A stretch of DNA of 64,000 nt, taken from positions 124,001-188,000 of the forward strand of contig JAHUUL010000003.1 of assembly GCA_019218415.1 (NCBI GenBank), in the 5' to 3' direction. Both the position numbers and the translations under genes were made by a program. Origin of the DNA: Dermabacteraceae bacterium TAE3-ERU27 (GTDB taxonomy: Bacteria > Actinomycetota > Actinomycetes > Actinomycetales > Dermabacteraceae). Positions 15,191 to 21,583 of this stretch are shown here, in pieces (position 1 is the stretch's first letter; the number at the start of each line of letters is the position of its first letter). The notes under the pieces were generated by a model, which saw only the letters and a list, made by a program, of their open reading frames with translations, searched no databases and was not told the origin of the DNA.

Positions 15191-15652
15191 TTACGCTTTG
15201 TCGGGCCGGGCCAGCCGGTAGCGTGCCCCCTGAGTATCGCGTTCTAGCAGGCCGGTATCCACGCAGTCCCGGCGGGCCAGCGCCACATCGTCCACCAACA
15301 TTCCTAGCGCGGCGTTGAGCTGCGGCTCCGTACAGGAATCCCAGCCGTTGCGTGCGAATGCCTCTCGGCAGGCCCGCTCGCTCAGCGGTAGCCGGGACTC
15401 CGCCGAGACAGGCAGCTCCAGCCTGCCCCGCTCGAACACCGACTCGGGGCCTAGCGCGTCATTCAACGCGGCGCGCAGCGTCAAAAGCGCCTCGGTATCA
15501 AGCCCGCCCTCGCTATCCACGAAAGAAAGCTGCCTGACGGGCGTGCTCTCGGTGGAGCTGCCCTGCAAGACCTCCACCAGGGCGGCCCGCAGCCGGGGTG
15601 CGCACAGCACGTTGAGCAGCAGGCGCAGCTCAGAGAAAGGATTTGCGTTCAT
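15191..15652 (-). CDS. DUF2087-type small protein (winged-helix-like C-terminus)
   Basis: 153 residues. The C-terminal 60 residues (FARNGWDSCTEPQLNAALGM then VALARRDCVDTGLLERDTQG, ending in YRLARP) fit the DUF2087 pattern: a helical, winged-helix-like domain often fused to ArsR/MarR-type regulators. The N-terminal 60 residues are helical (FSELRLLLNVLCAPRLRAALVEVL), suggestive of a DNA-binding or dimerisation unit. Its ATG overlaps the stop of the upstream gene by four bases. A role as a regulator of the neighbouring gene is possible, but function is not known. Confidence 0.6.
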   Translation of the reverse strand: MNANPFSELRLLLNVLCAPRLRAALVEVLQGSSTESTPVRQLSFVDSEGGLDTEALLTLRAALNDALGPESVFERGRLELPVSAESRLPLSERACREAFARNGWDSCTEPQLNAALGMLVDDVALARRDCVDTGLLERDTQGARYRLARPDKA

Positions 15653-16107
15653 TTTTGATACCTCTCCAGGTAAGAGAACCGCAGCGCGCCGAGGGTGGCC
15701 CTGAAGGCGTCGAGATCGGAGAGGATCTCGGCTCCGTCCTTACCGAAGTCGGGGTGCCCGCTGAACGCGTCCCACGCAGAGTCCATGACGGCCGAGATTC
15801 GGCCCAGCTGTTTGGCCACGAACTCCTCCAGCAGCAGCGTGGATAGCTCCGCGATGTTCTCGTCGTAATAGGGGATGGTCACGTGAAGGTTGCTGATGAG
15901 GGCCTCCACCAGCCTGACGTCTTCACCGCCGTCAAAAGAGCGCACCGCGCGGACGATGAAGTCTCCGAACAGCCCGAAGTTCTCCCGCTTCCAGTCCCAG
16001 AACTCGTCAGGGTCCCAGTCGCCGACCCCGGTGCCGCGCACTAGCTCCCGCAGCTGACCCTCGGGCATGCCTATACCGCCCCTAACCAGGGCCTCCATGC
16101 CTTTCAT
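15649..16107 (-). CDS. Hypothetical acidic protein coupled to the DUF2087 gene
   Basis: 152 residues, no recognised family. It is acidic and helical, with Trp/Phe-rich stretches (DWDPDEFWDWKRENFGLFGDF), no signal peptide and no membrane segment. The start may be 16107 or the ATG at 16098, which has GAAAGG just upstream. It forms a two-gene leftward unit with the DUF2087 protein, divergent from the bacteriocin operon. Because it shares the 185-bp control region with the bacteriocin gene, a link to bacteriocin regulation or self-protection is conceivable but unsupported otherwise. Confidence 0.55.
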   Translation of the reverse strand: MKGMEALVRGGIGMPEGQLRELVRGTGVGDWDPDEFWDWKRENFGLFGDFIVRAVRSFDGGEDVRLVEALISNLHVTIPYYDENIAELSTLLLEEFVAKQLGRISAVMDSAWDAFSGHPDFGKDGAEILSDLDAFRATLGALRFSYLERYQK

Positions 16108-16121
16108 TCAGACACGTCCAC

Positions 16122-16149
16122 CCATTAAGTCTGTTCCATTAAGTCTGTT
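16122..16149. repeat. 14-bp tandem direct repeat in the bacteriocin control region
   Basis: CCATTAAGTCTGTT occurs twice in immediate tandem (16122-16135, 16136-16149). It lies upstream of the CRP-like site and between two divergent units, so it could be a paired regulator binding site. Confidence 0.6.
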
Positions 16150-16180
16150 TAAGAAGCGGGGAGGGCGCAAAATTTTCCGA

Positions 16181-16196
16181 TGTGAGGTGTGTCACA
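16181..16196. promoter_or_regulatory. Perfect CRP/GlxR-type site upstream of the bacteriocin gene
   Basis: TGTGA-GGTGTG-TCACA is an exact match to the TGTGAN6TCACA consensus of the CRP/GlxR family. It is centred about 105 bp before the bacteriocin ATG. In corynebacteria and mycobacteria such sites bind the cAMP-dependent regulators GlxR/Crp. No crp gene is in the window; binding is inferred from sequence only. Confidence 0.6.
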
Positions 16197-16292
16197 CTTA
16201 CAATAATCCTGTGGCCTTCGTGGTAATACATATACATCAAGGCGTCCCCCTTGATTCAACCCTATTCAATCGAAGATGATTGGAGGCCTGTT

Positions 16293-16694
16293 ATGTTTGT
16301 AAAACGTGCGTCTTTTGGGGCTGCAGTGCTAGCTGTAGCTTCTATGGTGGCGCTTTCCCCAAATGCTGCATTTGCGGCTGAAAAATCTGTGTTTTTCGCG
16401 GATGTACCCCATCCCACTCAGGAGGTTAGTGGGCTTACTGGTATTCGACCGCTTTGGGTGGCTCCAGGTAGGCACATTCAGTACCCCAATAAAGGCGGGG
16501 TATGGGAATATGGGTTCTGGGACCTAAAGTACCGTTCCTACTACACTGTGGGAAGGTGTCACGGCACCACGGTGAAGAGTGGTAGCCGGGTTTCTCGTAG
16601 TACCAAAACTGCCGCAGGTAAGAAATCTGTGGCGGAACTTTGGACAATCAATAATCCGTGGGCTAACCCGCAGTACTACTATCGCGTCTGCTGA
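16293..16694 (+). CDS. Lactococcin 972 family bacteriocin precursor
   Basis: 133 residues from ATG 16293, with GGAGG six bases upstream; an earlier in-frame start lacks a ribosome site. Residues 1-28 are a classic Sec signal (MFVKRASFGAAVLAVASMVA, then AFA before Ala-29). The C-terminal 65 residues (69-133) show the family pattern: GGVWEYGF, then SYYTVGRCHGTTV, then VSRSTKTAAGKKSVAELWTI, ending in QYYYRVC. Lactococcin 972 binds lipid II and blocks septum formation in its host range; that activity is by family only. The region between signal and core (29-68) may be a propeptide. Cys-89 and the terminal Cys-133 could form a disulphide; lactococcin 972 itself lacks cysteines. It heads a three-gene operon with a DUF1430 protein and an ABC ATPase. 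Confidence 0.9.
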   Translation: MFVKRASFGAAVLAVASMVALSPNAAFAAEKSVFFADVPHPTQEVSGLTGIRPLWVAPGRHIQYPNKGGVWEYGFWDLKYRSYYTVGRCHGTTVKSGSRVSRSTKTAAGKKSVAELWTINNPWANPQYYYRVC

Positions 16695-16721
16695 TTAGTC
16701 TTTGTGTGCGGCTCGTAAGGG

Positions 16722-16770
16722 GCGTGGCGAGGGGCGTGTGAGGCTCTCATAATCATTTCCCTCGCCACGC
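16722..16770 (+). repeat. 12-bp perfect stem-loop between the bacteriocin and its transporter genes
   Basis: GCGTGGCGAGGG (16722-16733) is the exact inverse complement of 16759-16770, with a 25-base loop. No T tract follows; the ribosome site and start of the membrane protein gene come next. It is more likely an mRNA-stabilising or attenuating element than a full terminator, allowing more bacteriocin than transporter. Confidence 0.7.
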
Positions 16771-16794
16771 ATTATGTTTGTTAAGGGGAAGGGT

Positions 16795-18789
16795 GTGAAA
16801 AAGTATTTTTCGCTCGCTTTTGTGCTTATAGTTTTAGTTTCTGTGCTGCTTGGCGGTCAGGTCCTAAAGCGAAACGAGCTGCTTACCCCGCTGGGCACTT
16901 CCACCTCATTTGAATTGTATCTGGGTGACGCAGGGGTTTCCCGAGATCAGGTAATTCAGGACCTGGAGCAGATCGCGGCAGCTAATAAAGCTATTCTGCT
17001 TAAACCGAACACGGATTCTAAAAGCTATGGTTCGGTGCGAAACCTGTACTATTTCTCGCCGTCACCCCCATCTGGCGGGTTCCCCAGTGTAGGGCCTGGT
17101 GGGAAACTAGAGTGGTTCACAGACTCGATGACTGGAGACCTGCTTCCGGCCTCAGCTTTGGGGGATGCGCCCATATCTGGCACCTACCACGTCTCCCACA
17201 GTGCCCAAGCGCAGCAAGCTCTGGAGCGGTGGGCAGCAGACAAAGGCTTGACCCTGCGCTACCGGCAGCCAGAATCCACGCTAGCGCAACTGCATATTTT
17301 GGCAACACAAACCGGTCTGGGAATATCTTTTGTCGCAGTGCTGCTTCTGTCTCTAGCACTTGTCGTCACGGACGTTCTAAACCGAACATACTTGCGGTCC
17401 ATCCAGCTGCTCAATGGCGTAGATACAGCCAAAATCAACCTGCAGCAGATCTCGCGCGTGCTTCGCTGGGGCGGACTAGGCGTGACCATAGGGCTTGCTT
17501 TGAGCCTGCTGTACGCAACGCTGTTCCTGCCGGCGGCCGTGGCCGCAAACGTTGCCCTCAGTGCCTCCCCCTACCTGGGTGCAGGACTAGCCGCGATGGT
17601 TGCCGCCACCGTATCAAGCGTGCTCATTTTTGCTCCAAACGTAGACTTGATCCGCACGCGCTCCCTGCCCACCAAGCTATACCGCCGGGTCAACCTGACC
17701 CTACAGGTCGTGGCGGTGGCTGTTTGCGTGATGGCTAGTGGGTCCGCGGCAGCCCTGGGAAAAAACGTGTTCATCGCCTACCAGCAACAGGTCTCCACCA
17801 AGGCCATGGGACAGTCTGTCGCCGTATCCTTCAAAACTTTCGACTACCTGGATACCCAAGAAGGCATTAGCCGAGTTGAGCAAATTCTGGCGCAGCCCGA
17901 AATTGACCGATCCGCAGCATTGTCAATGAACATTGGTGCCGGGATTGAGCTGACAATGCAAGAACTGGGAGGCTACGACCAGATCGACATTGCAAACCAA
18001 TCCTTCCTAGACCTAATTAAGCTACCCCAAAAAGCTCTGCTACCCGTGAAATGGGAGTCCCTGCCAGACCCCACCGCCAAATTCCTCAACAGTCAACTAG
18101 AGCTCTGGATACCCCAGGGGGGCGATGTGCGTCAGGCTTTCAGGCTCTACACGCTCTCGGAAAACAGTGGGTATATTTCTTTAGACCCTAACGTTGGCCA
18201 GGGAGGGCAGGTAAACCGACCCGCGCACCCCTTGATAATTGTCCCCACTATGCCGATAGCCAAAATGGACACTAGCGGCTTTTCGATCCCGGCAATTTCA
18301 AGCAGTAACCTGATTTTTACCGACCCGGTTGTGCTGAGAGATAAAATATACTCCAGTCCTATCGCTCCGAGCGTACGCTCAATTGATCGTATAGCCGACG
18401 CCGGCCTGGTTTCGGCGCAATACTTTAAAGGGCAAGCGATCTCCTACCTGAGCGCCATCATCGTCTCATTCATTTTGATTGCCGTAACAGCGTGGCAGTC
18501 GGCGATGATCTGGGCAGCCGGCCATCGAAAACATATCCTGGTTGCAACCATGTCGGGGGTGGCGGCTAAAACACTGTACCGACAGACCTTGAACAAGGCT
18601 CTCTCTCTGACCCTGGTGGCAGCAACAGCTGGCGCATTAACCTCCGTGCTCACCTCCGGGTACGTAGACGCCATTACGGCAATGCTTACCGCAATGGTCA
18701 TGATGGGAGCATTCTGGTCACTGTCCGCACAGGCCTACGCCTCCAACACGAGGCTCACCTTCAAGAAAACTATCCGAAGGAAAGCGTAA
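16795..18789 (+). CDS. DUF1430 bacteriocin-associated integral membrane protein (putative immunity/permease)
   Basis: About 664 residues from GTG 16795, preceded by AAGGGG at six bases; the ATG at 16774 lies directly against the stem-loop and has no ribosome site. Topology: an N-terminal helix (5-22), an extracytoplasmic domain of about 160 residues, a block of four helices (about 185-330), a second large extracytoplasmic domain and three C-terminal helices. This resembles duplicated FtsX/MacB-type permeases. DUF1430 (TIGR01654) proteins accompany lactococcin 972-like genes together with an ABC ATPase and are believed to give immunity or export. The stop is two bases before the ATPase start. 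Confidence 0.88.
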   Translation: MKKYFSLAFVLIVLVSVLLGGQVLKRNELLTPLGTSTSFELYLGDAGVSRDQVIQDLEQIAAANKAILLKPNTDSKSYGSVRNLYYFSPSPPSGGFPSVGPGGKLEWFTDSMTGDLLPASALGDAPISGTYHVSHSAQAQQALERWAADKGLTLRYRQPESTLAQLHILATQTGLGISFVAVLLLSLALVVTDVLNRTYLRSIQLLNGVDTAKINLQQISRVLRWGGLGVTIGLALSLLYATLFLPAAVAANVALSASPYLGAGLAAMVAATVSSVLIFAPNVDLIRTRSLPTKLYRRVNLTLQVVAVAVCVMASGSAAALGKNVFIAYQQQVSTKAMGQSVAVSFKTFDYLDTQEGISRVEQILAQPEIDRSAALSMNIGAGIELTMQELGGYDQIDIANQSFLDLIKLPQKALLPVKWESLPDPTAKFLNSQLELWIPQGGDVRQAFRLYTLSENSGYISLDPNVGQGGQVNRPAHPLIIVPTMPIAKMDTSGFSIPAISSSNLIFTDPVVLRDKIYSSPIAPSVRSIDRIADAGLVSAQYFKGQAISYLSAIIVSFILIAVTAWQSAMIWAAGHRKHILVATMSGVAAKTLYRQTLNKALSLTLVAATAGALTSVLTSGYVDAITAMLTAMVMMGAFWSLSAQAYASNTRLTFKKTIRRKA

Positions 18790-18791
18790 AA

Positions 18792-19418
18792 ATGGTTAAC
18801 ATTAGCGCACAAAATCTTGGTATCGCTATTGAAGGCAACTCGGTTTTCGAAAACGTAACTCTAGAATGTGGGCCTGGAGTCATGATGGCGTTAACCGGTC
18901 CGAGCGGGTGCGGCAAAAGCACCCTGCTGAACGCCCTCGGACTGGTGCTGCCGCCATCGGTGGGTGATGTTCTAGTTGACGGCGTAAGCACCAAAAACTG
19001 GAGCGACAAACAACGGTTCGCCTTCTGGAAGCAGCATGCCGCGTTCATCTACCAAGACTACGGTGTTATTGAGGCGGAAACCCTCAGCTTCAACATCACT
19101 CTAGGTGGGCAGCTTAAAAGCGCAACCTATCAAAGGCCAGAAGAAGTCCTAGAAATAGTTGGCTTGCAAAGCCGAGAAAAAGAGCACGCCTCGGTGCTAT
19201 CGGGAGGCGAAAAACAGCGCCTAGGAATAGCGCGGGCAATGTACAAAGACAGCCACGTCCTGTTCGCGGACGAGCCAACCGCCTCGCTGGACCCGGCCAA
19301 CCGAGACATGATCATCGAACTGCTCCGCCTCGCCACAGCCCGAGGGATGAGCGTCATCGTCGCCACCCACGACGACTACCTAGCCCAGGCCTGCCCGCAG
19401 AAATACCGGTTGCCGTAA
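18792..19418 (+). CDS. ABC transporter ATPase of the lactococcin 972-type operon
   Basis: 208 residues, the usual size for MacB/LolD-type ATPases. Walker A GPSGCGKST near 36, Q-loop YQDYG near 82, signature LSGGEKQRLGIARAM near 136, Walker B VLFADEPTASLD near 156, switch His in VATHDD near 194. It follows the DUF1430 gene by two bases, so the pair forms one ABC unit. Likely role: energises removal of the bacteriocin from the producer membrane (immunity) rather than secretion, since the bacteriocin has a Sec signal. The role is inferred from homologous operons. Confidence 0.9.
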   Translation: MVNISAQNLGIAIEGNSVFENVTLECGPGVMMALTGPSGCGKSTLLNALGLVLPPSVGDVLVDGVSTKNWSDKQRFAFWKQHAAFIYQDYGVIEAETLSFNITLGGQLKSATYQRPEEVLEIVGLQSREKEHASVLSGGEKQRLGIARAMYKDSHVLFADEPTASLDPANRDMIIELLRLATARGMSVIVATHDDYLAQACPQKYRLP

Positions 19419-19600
19419 AAGCCAGCCAGGTCAGGCAGGGAAGGGGAGAAAAGAGCAGCGCCGAGCGGCCGCGGCTAGGACCAGGCGGACAGGGCCTGAG
19501 AGAGAGCGGATGTTTAGTGACCCATTTGGATACAAGGGGCTGCGTGGGTGCAAAACCAGACTGGATGGGTGCAAAATCGCGGTTCTCATGCAACCACCTC

Positions 19601-20254
19601 CTACACACGCCCGGAGAGAAGTCTTAGAATCCGACGTACCCGATTTATTACACTCGGTGTCTCACTCGAATTGCTGCTCGATGGCACGTCGTTGTCGAAC
19701 TTGTCTTTCAGAGCTTGTGAAATCTCCAACGGATACAGCGCGCCCAGCATGCTTGCATCCTTCTCCTCCTCAATGAATGTTGCTTCTGCTTCTTCAGAGA
19801 ACAGCCCAGCAAAGTTCGTGCCCGGATGGATCTGCGCATTTATAGCATCATCCTTTACAAGGCTCTCCAAATAAAACTCATGCAGGAAAAGCCTGTAACC
19901 GTAAAGAAACAGGTAGACCTCGAGGTCGATCCTGAGACGTTCTTCTGGATCTTCAATACGGTGAAATATCTTGTCGTCATGGACTCCACAGAACAGTCTC
20001 TCAACACCGGCGGATTTTGCTGCTACCGATGTCAGCCATTTCTCGGAGTCAACTTGTCTTCCCTTAGTGAATGCCTCGTCTAAGTTGAGAGTAAGAAGAC
20101 TGTTCGATTCAGGATATCGAACAAGGAATGACCGCGGGTAAGTGTGGGAACGAATCGCCCTATCCATGCATCCAGGGAATAGGCAAAGACTATCTTCTCT
20201 ATATTTATTTAGTGTCATTTTTCGGTTCAAACCGAAGAGCTTTTCATTATCCAT
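19601..20254 (-). CDS. Uncharacterised protein with HNH-like CxxxxC...SH...FCxxHD zinc site
   Basis: 217 residues from ATG 20254, with AGAGG six bases upstream. The pattern LCLFPGC (about 25-31), RSHTYPRSFL (about 36-45), LFCGVHDDKIF (about 84-94) is a conserved Cys/His arrangement in a widespread uncharacterised family; it probably binds zinc as a treble clef, like HNH proteins without the full nuclease motif. The rest is helical, with an aromatic YLFLYGYRLFLHEFYLE segment. Base composition is more AT-rich than neighbours. It sits inside the segment bounded by inverted repeats, suggesting transfer. Function unknown; such proteins are sometimes found near defence genes. Confidence 0.7.
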   Translation of the reverse strand: MDNEKLFGLNRKMTLNKYREDSLCLFPGCMDRAIRSHTYPRSFLVRYPESNSLLTLNLDEAFTKGRQVDSEKWLTSVAAKSAGVERLFCGVHDDKIFHRIEDPEERLRIDLEVYLFLYGYRLFLHEFYLESLVKDDAINAQIHPGTNFAGLFSEEAEATFIEEEKDASMLGALYPLEISQALKDKFDNDVPSSSNSSETPSVINRVRRILRLLSGRV

Positions 20255-20325
20255 ATACGCCTCTTGAATACCCAATATCAAAACACGGGTGTGCCTATAT
20301 TGATCCTATAAACTCTTGCCTCTGA

Positions 20326-20850
20326 CTAGTCTGTTCTTGACTCATCCTTGAACGTGACAGTGATGGTGCCGTCTGTGTGGACGGTGGCGTGATCAATAAG
20401 TGCGTTCCATGCGTCGTCGCTGTATTTAAGGGTGGGGTGGTTGGTTCGGTAGGCGTGGGCTTGTTCGATGCGGTGGCGCTTTTCTTGAGTCTGGCGGATC
20501 TGCGACTCGAGGTCGTCGCAGCGCTGCGCGTGGCGTTCATATTCAGCTTGGAGCTGGTCGAAGGTGTGTTGGTAGGTGTCTTGGTCTTGGGCGTGGGTGG
20601 CGTTGACGGTGATGAGCTGGTTGAGTCTGGCTAATACTGCATCACGGGCGAGTGCTTCTCGTGCTACTTGTTCCTCTAGCTCGGTGGTGTCGCAGGTTTG
20701 GCTCTCCTGACAATTTCGGTTTGAACCAAGTCCCATGTTGCTGGCTCGATGATCGGCTCGTGGTTGCCGATGACGTAGTATTGGGGGATTTCTCCTTCGT
20801 TGGGTTTGGTTCTTTTTAGATAAGGGCGAAATGTGTAGAAAATCAAGAGC
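20326..20850 (-). pseudogene. Remnant of a large serine recombinase (internal deletion plus frame change)
   Basis: Two frames carry pieces in the right order. The first (about 20850-20676) has TKPNEGEIPQYYVIGNHEPI and PATWDLVQTEIVRR, the recombinase domain. The second (about 20700-20326) has TTELEEQVAREALARDAVLA and SDDAWNALIDHATVHTDGTI, the helical and C-terminal parts. The zinc-ribbon between IVRR and the TTEL segment is gone, the frame changes there, and the N-terminal resolvase catalytic domain is absent. It can no longer catalyse recombination, but marks past integration of a phage or mobile island here. Confidence 0.85.
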
Positions 20851-20920
20851 CATTGCCTGTTAGAAAAGAGAACTTCTTTAATATCAGACAATGGCTCTCG
20901 AACGATTTTTCCAATAGACC

Positions 20921-21148
20921 CTAATCGCTTGTGGTCGGACCGGTTGGAAGAAGTCTGCTCTGAAAGAAAGTCCAAGCAATGGTCGAAGTGACCAGCATGG
21001 CTGCCAAAAAGACTACTAGAAGCGTCTTGAAACTAATCTCTAGCTCAAGTAAAAAGTGCGCGATTCCCAAATATGCTAGGAAATTTCCAAAAAACACTCC
21101 TAGCGTGAACAAAATCGTAAACTTTAGATGAATTGTTTTGCTCCGCAT
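20921..21148 (-). CDS. Small two-helix membrane protein
   Basis: 75 residues from ATG 21148, with GGAG eight bases upstream. It has a basic N-terminus, hydrophobic segments at about 9-32 and 41-62, and a short polar tail. No family is recognised. It overlaps the last codons of the Gly/Ala-rich peptide frame at 21124-21267. That arrangement, a small hydrophobic peptide followed by an overlapping small membrane protein, resembles bacteriocin plus immunity gene pairs, but here the peptide gene has lost its start. Confidence 0.5.
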   Translation of the reverse strand: MRSKTIHLKFTILFTLGVFFGNFLAYLGIAHFLLELEISFKTLLVVFLAAMLVTSTIAWTFFQSRLLPTGPTTSD

Positions 21149-21507: not shown

Positions 21508-21583
21508 TGGAGCCGCCTGGGGGAATCGAACCCCCGACCTATTCATTACGAGTGAATCGCTCTGCCGACTGAGCTAAGGCGGC
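21508..21583 (-). tRNA. tRNA-Thr (anticodon CGT), CCA encoded
   Basis: A complete cloverleaf reads on the minus strand: acceptor GCCGCCT/AGGCGGC, D-arm TAGCTCAGTCGGCAGAGC, anticodon stem ATTCA/TGAAT with loop CTCGTAA (anticodon CGT), T-arm GGGGGTTCGATTCCCCC, discriminator T, then CCA at 21510-21508. The 3' end faces the accessory segment. Confidence 0.95.

Follow-up and report, generated by a model that had tools for sequence, protein, structure and literature searches.

A lactococcin 972-family bacteriocin operon of Dermabacteraceae bacterium TAE3-ERU27 with a probable propeptide and a likely C-terminal disulphide

The window analysed here, a 64,000-nucleotide stretch of contig JAHUUL010000003.1 (positions 124,001 to 188,000, forward strand) from Dermabacteraceae bacterium TAE3-ERU27, contains a three-gene bacteriocin operon in which the gene for a precursor peptide (gene A) is followed by genes for a membrane protein (gene B) and for the ATPase of an ATP-binding cassette (ABC) transporter (gene C). 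A preliminary description of the same DNA had called this a complete lactococcin 972-type operon. The match of the precursor to the family model PF09683 and the three intact genes bear this out, and the coordinates, frames and residue numbers given there are correct. In window numbering, the operon is laid out as follows:

16282-16286, + strand: GGAGG ribosome-binding site of the precursor gene, six bases 5' of ATG 16293 (sequence reading)
16293-16694, + strand: precursor gene A, 133 amino acids, from ATG 16293 to a TGA stop
16293-16376, + strand: Sec signal peptide, residues 1-28 (MFVKR...NAAFA), with n-, h- and c-regions and A-x-A (by inspection)
16377-16454, + strand: probable propeptide, residues 29-54, ending GIRPL ahead of W55 (insert relative to formosin-like relatives; modelled disorder)
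16455-16691, + strand: probable mature bacteriocin, residues 55-133, a beta-sandwich (alignment to PDB chain 9hkj; AlphaFold2 model; fold matches)
16557-16559, + strand: Cys89 codon TGT (sequence reading; co-occurrence with Cys133)
16689-16691, + strand: Cys133 codon TGC, the final residue, adjoining the TGA stop (sequence reading; co-occurrence with Cys89)
16722-16770, + strand: strong RNA hairpin between genes A and B, a possible attenuator or mRNA stabiliser (minimum free energy -33.6 kcal/mol for 16700-16780, z -3.03)
16774-18789, + strand: membrane protein gene B, 671 amino acids, with an alternative in-frame GTG start at 16795 behind AAGGGGAAGGG (weak FtsX C-terminal match; profile search shows a related B in each of the 31 homologous loci)
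18792-19418, + strand: ABC transporter ATPase gene C, 208 amino acids (PF00005, E 1.5e-27; TIGR03608 the best NCBIfam model)

Residues 68-130 of the precursor match PF09683 at E 1.6e-8 (35.4 bits, above the cut-off of 22), and the genome contains no other PF09683 match. Against TIGR01653, the narrower lactococcin 972 model, the precursor scores 28.4 bits and does not pass the cut-off of 32.1; by its profile scores it thus belongs to the lactococcin 972 family PF09683 and is not filed under TIGR01653. Within the family its nearest structural likeness is to formosin D. Residues 55-132 match PDB chain 9hkj (Structure of Formosin D) at E 1.3e-13, and a 22-row profile of mature regions matches the same chain over its whole length at E 1e-33, compared with E 0.081 for 2lgn (lactococcin 972). 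AlphaFold2, run on the alignment of mature regions, gave a model with a mean predicted local distance difference test score (pLDDT) of 95.0 and seven strands, the first at residues 58-63, in which the window core is predicted to adopt the beta-sandwich fold of 2lgn and 9hkj. Foldseek returned 9hkj as the top match (E 3e-7) and 2lgn as the second, while VIA-align 2 gave Z 15.4 and a root-mean-square deviation of 1.1 over 79 residues for 9hkj, and Z 8.8 with 25% identity over 63 residues for 2lgn. Hits to other proteins at Z about 5 in the fold search, arrestin and immunoglobulin among them, were set aside as common beta-sandwich likenesses.

The end-to-end match to 9hkj, the N-terminal Trp extension and the GGxWxYGF motif place the peptide in a formosin D-like branch, with which it also shares the HGSTV and YYYR motifs and the presence of B and C genes nearby. 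The 9hkj chain, numbered 42-126 in its entry, is identical to the last 85 residues of a Bacillus glycinifermentans GO-13 precursor (locus L071 of our collection) and begins at a Trp directly after the signal peptide; a paper on formosin D was not found in the open-licence literature. Formosin D differs from the window peptide in having no cysteines (Val/Asn at both places) and no propeptide, its signal ending SFA before the Trp, and its locus encodes a more distant B protein. Lactococcin 972 shares the beta-sandwich core, a leader and the three-gene operon, but it is 66 residues long and lacks the 13-residue N-terminal extension and the propeptide; its aligned part is cysteine-free, as the preliminary description had said of the whole peptide and as is true of residues 2-64 of the 2lgn chain in its printed form. 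The operons of Olsenella profusa F0195 (L044) and of a Tissierellia metagenome-assembled genome (L043) have a similar insert and the same cysteine pair. They lie, however, in other hosts, that of L043 also in another phylum, and their B proteins are 30% (L044) and 27% (L043) identical to that of the window, their C proteins 60% and 44%.

Inspection of residues 1-28 agrees with the Sec signal already assigned to the precursor, with AFA preceding A29 at its end. The segment that follows had been put down as a possible propeptide of 40 residues. Some propeptide is indeed likely, but by the 9hkj alignment and the model this length is too great: residues 55-67, which align with the start of the 9hkj chain at W55 and lie within the modelled fold, belong to the mature peptide, and about 26 residues (29-54) are left. 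These are probably a propeptide, as judged from the alignment and from the model, in which the insert is disordered (residues 28-47 at pLDDT under 50). In insert-less relatives (L003, L051, L053, L054, L058, L065, L066 and L069-L073), an A-x-A signal end lies directly before formosin D's first Trp. In the window and in L043-L046, L048, L050, L052, L055-L057 and L068, about 19-32 residues separate the signal site, placed by eye, from this Trp, and L049 has the insert too, but its chosen start codon leaves it without a signal. A like insert is thus found in 12 named relatives, including Olsenella, Rothia and Anaerococcus, the formosin branch being without it.

It is conceivable, though somewhat unlikely, that signal peptidase makes the only cut and that the secreted peptide retains residues 29-54 as a disordered 26-residue tail. 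The modelled disorder is what would be expected of a tail, the motif before W55 is loose (P-x precedes the Trp in only 9 of 15 aligned rows), and no protease gene recurs beside the operons in 32 sources (31 loci and the window), a result on which a dedicated processing protease within the operon was also rejected. Yet the signal peptidase site of the insert-less relatives directly precedes the very same Trp, and formosin D in 9hkj begins there, so that this Trp looks like the working N-terminus. If residues 29-54 are a propeptide, as we prefer, they are likely removed by a general extracellular protease of the host. On a tree of B proteins, the propeptide label (16 with, 11 without) changes twice, a value as low as which was reached in 0 of 500 shuffles, on a quick tree with long branches and with labels assigned by eye. 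Separate events of co-evolution between propeptide and B protein are not shown by this test; the label follows the B tree as one inherited operon trait and thereby marks one operon lineage spanning Actinomycetota and Bacillota.

The precursor contains cysteines only at positions 89 and 133, and the preliminary description, which had placed both correctly and Cys133 correctly at the C-terminus, had called the two-cysteine core unusual. A family alignment, which it had itself named as the way to refute their rarity, was made and gives a different picture. We gathered 73 loci, 42 through PF09683 searches and 31 named loci through likeness to the window peptide; the PF09683 draws, which overlap, matched 3 of 47 genomes at the level of the family, 22 of 396 of the order, 13 of 394 of the class and 4 of 296 of the phylum. 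After exclusion of L016, whose frame departs from the family past profile position 33, and of the truncated L064, 71 cores remained, of which thinning at 90% identity left 59 non-redundant ones. Both cysteines are present in 38 of these 59 cores, Cys89 alone in 0, Cys133 alone in 3 and neither in 18; the corresponding numbers without thinning are 46, 0, 3 and 22. Among the 39 Actinomycetota cores drawn by PF09683 rather than by likeness, 23 have both, 0 Cys89 alone, 2 Cys133 alone and 14 neither. Far from being unusual, the pair is, by these counts, the usual state in Actinomycetota members of the family.

By total number of cysteines per core, 9 of the 59 rows have none, 47 have two, two have three (L034 and L035, the extra cysteine just upstream), one has five, and exactly one cysteine occurs in no row. 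The three rows with Cys133 and without Cys89 (L009, L025, L065) each have a cysteine in the Lys105 column, and other cores pair columns 80 and 126 (L010, L011, L014, L034, L035), 73 and 128 (L015, L017, L018) or 95 and 100 (L002). With columns 89 and 133 left out, the tree yields seven well-supported independent contrasts in Cys89, in which Cys133 moves along in 5.8 on average and against in 0 (p 0.031), on 63 columns only and with many forks unresolved. This all-or-none pairing supports a disulphide, and the Cys89-Cys133 bond proposed earlier is likely in the window peptide. The genome also encodes VKOR and a thioredoxin-like oxidoreductase, possible oxidants of the cysteines. Two relatives are of separate interest. 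In Nocardioides ganghwensis (L065, 2266-6237), the precursor gene is opposite in strand to B and C, and the partner of the C-terminal cysteine lies in a different column. In Clostridium gallinarum, locus L050 is a whole contig of 4207 bases encoding a peptide from which both cysteines have been lost and which ends YFYR; at 4.2 kb and a coverage of 843, the contig is probably a multicopy plasmid.

We consider it probable, on sequence comparison and modelling, that the locus is a bacteriocin operon of the PF09683 family, formosin D branch, that was acquired horizontally and whose product would be a twice-processed, disulphide-bearing, lipid II-directed peptide with B-C immunity. As a plausible mechanism, Sec would export the precursor, signal peptidase would cleave after A28 and an extracellular protease before W55, and the Cys89-Cys133 disulphide would link the beginning of strand 4 with the end of the final strand, taking the place of the features that stabilise lactococcin 972 and formosin D, both without cysteines. 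Once mature, the cationic peptide (79 residues, computed net charge +9) would bind lipid II of closely related competitors and block septum formation, as does lactococcin 972, which is described in PMC11796350 as acting via lipid II and septation. By this analogy, the most likely role of the secreted product is to inhibit septation via lipid II. B and C would act together as an ABC system for immunity, removing the peptide from the producer membrane; an exporter role is less likely. Several observations weigh against parts of this reading: the precursor falls short of TIGR01653, no NCBIfam model matches gene B with E up to 1, W55 is preceded by a loose motif, and no processing protease recurs beside the operons. 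To these is added the behaviour of Sil of Streptococcus iniae, a family member that according to PMC4004548 inhibited the growth of B. subtilis with no killing, unlike lactococcin 972, so that a single family mode of action is not assured.

All 32 sources contain the precursor and B, and 30 of them contain C as well. Gene B matches the Pfam family FtsX at E 0.016, below the cut-off, and contains no recognised peptidase domain; its score against TIGR01654 (bacteriocin-associated 7TM protein) is 9.8 bits (E 0.17; cut-off 189.35), and the same model weakly matches the B proteins of 4 of 7 relatives (E 0.00025-0.0041), all far below the cut-off. The two clades of B proteins are homologous along their length (hhalign probability 100). 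We take gene B to resemble MacB or BceAB systems. Gene C scores 178 bits against TIGR03608 (L_ocin_972_ABC), the best of all models for it, but does not reach the cut-off of 254.85. The name of that model, putative bacteriocin export ABC transporter, speaks for export of the peptide by B and C, whether in place of protection of the producer or in addition to it. We regard this as unlikely, since a Sec signal is already present on the precursor, secretion of the family is believed to run through Sec according to an mBio 2024 paper (PMC11796350), and B is a weak FtsX-like permease in which no peptidase domain is recognised. An immunity role of B and C is what we propose, with moderate confidence; the same paper treats B and C as presumed immunity/transport proteins whose functions are unverified in any lactococcin 972 locus.

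Between genes A and B, the hairpin would fit an attenuator or stabiliser that lets the peptide exceed the transporter in amount. Hairpins of unlike sequence follow the precursor gene at z -2.9 or lower in 11 of 19 sources including the window, with no clear hairpin in 8 of 19, in a survey made without a within-gene control. ATG 16774 of gene B sits just behind the hairpin foot, and on sequence grounds gene B may start at GTG 16795 instead. A promoter scan gave 3 sites, with 2.0 expected, and nothing useful.

The surroundings of the operon bear on its origin. It lies in the following segment:

16099-20694, no strand: accessory segment holding the operon, 4,596 bp (absent from sister species G046)

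The genome of G046 follows the window collinearly as far as 16098, with 95% identity close to that point, and does so again from 20695 (97%), with an unrelated 691 bp between, and the segment has a GC content of 0.531, compared with 0.625 for the window. These collinear flanks, the unrelated replacement and the low GC mark the operon as accessory, either inserted or a replacement, and as judged from the genome comparison its most likely origin is horizontal acquisition. G046 has no PF09683 match and no gene C relative at E 1e-30. Large serine recombinase remnants (20326-20975 and 21508-21583, both - strand; weak PF07508 match) lie beside a tRNA-Thr gene, in a region partly common to the sister species from 20695, and are likely the scar of an integrated element. 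That the operon is a left-over of horizontal transfer which has decayed or fallen silent in this strain would be in keeping with the lower-GC accessory segment adjoining these remnants and with its absence from the sister species; we think this very unlikely, as none of the three reading frames is interrupted, and ribosome-binding sites and family-conserved residues are present. An operon that is horizontally acquired and intact is the reading we retain.

The segment also holds a 226-amino-acid reading frame with no Pfam match (19601-20281, - strand). Just upstream of the operon, two small genes (15649-16107 and 15191-15652, both - strand), one DUF2087 and the other without a Pfam match, are largely kept in the sister species and are therefore outside the insertion. 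Elsewhere, near-identical bacteriocin operons in Actinotignum timonense and several Corynebacterium species (L057, L059-L064) indicate recent transfer between genera, and one genome (G666) has five PF09683 genes (L028, L036, L038-L040) in two tandem clusters. Searches for relatives on plasmids (tblastn) gave one match at E 0.7, which was ignored, and none were found on viral contigs or on genome contigs scanned with the single precursor protein.

The window operon is sound and ordinary. It belongs to a known bacteriocin family, with cysteines typical of its relatives and a propeptide common to its lineage. What is mildly new is family-wide: all-or-none cysteine pairs at alternative places, of which we found no description in the open-licence literature, and a second processing step that would expose the conserved N-terminal Trp, of which we found none in the open-licence PMC literature. 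The wider proposal, on which we are evenly divided, is that these peptides form a distinct and widespread lactococcin 972-type subclass, matured twice (removal of the Sec signal, then of a propeptide of ~20-30 residues before the Trp by a host protease) and with the C-terminal strand locked by a disulphide, the staples at 89-133, 105-133, 80-126 and 73-128 (window numbering) having arisen or moved repeatedly on one beta-sandwich. Precise predictions of mass and N-terminus follow for the proposed maturation step: the computed average masses of the oxidised forms, 2.0 being subtracted for the disulphide, are 9148 Da for residues 55-133 and about 11926 Da for residues 29-133. The pattern amends the view of the family given by its prototype, which has no cysteines: most lactococcin 972-type peptides of Actinomycetota seem to hold one disulphide. 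Lactococcin 972 itself is reportedly metastable, being called so in the title of a paper among the references of PMC11796350, and its stapled relatives may thus be sturdier starting points for lipid II-directed antibacterials.

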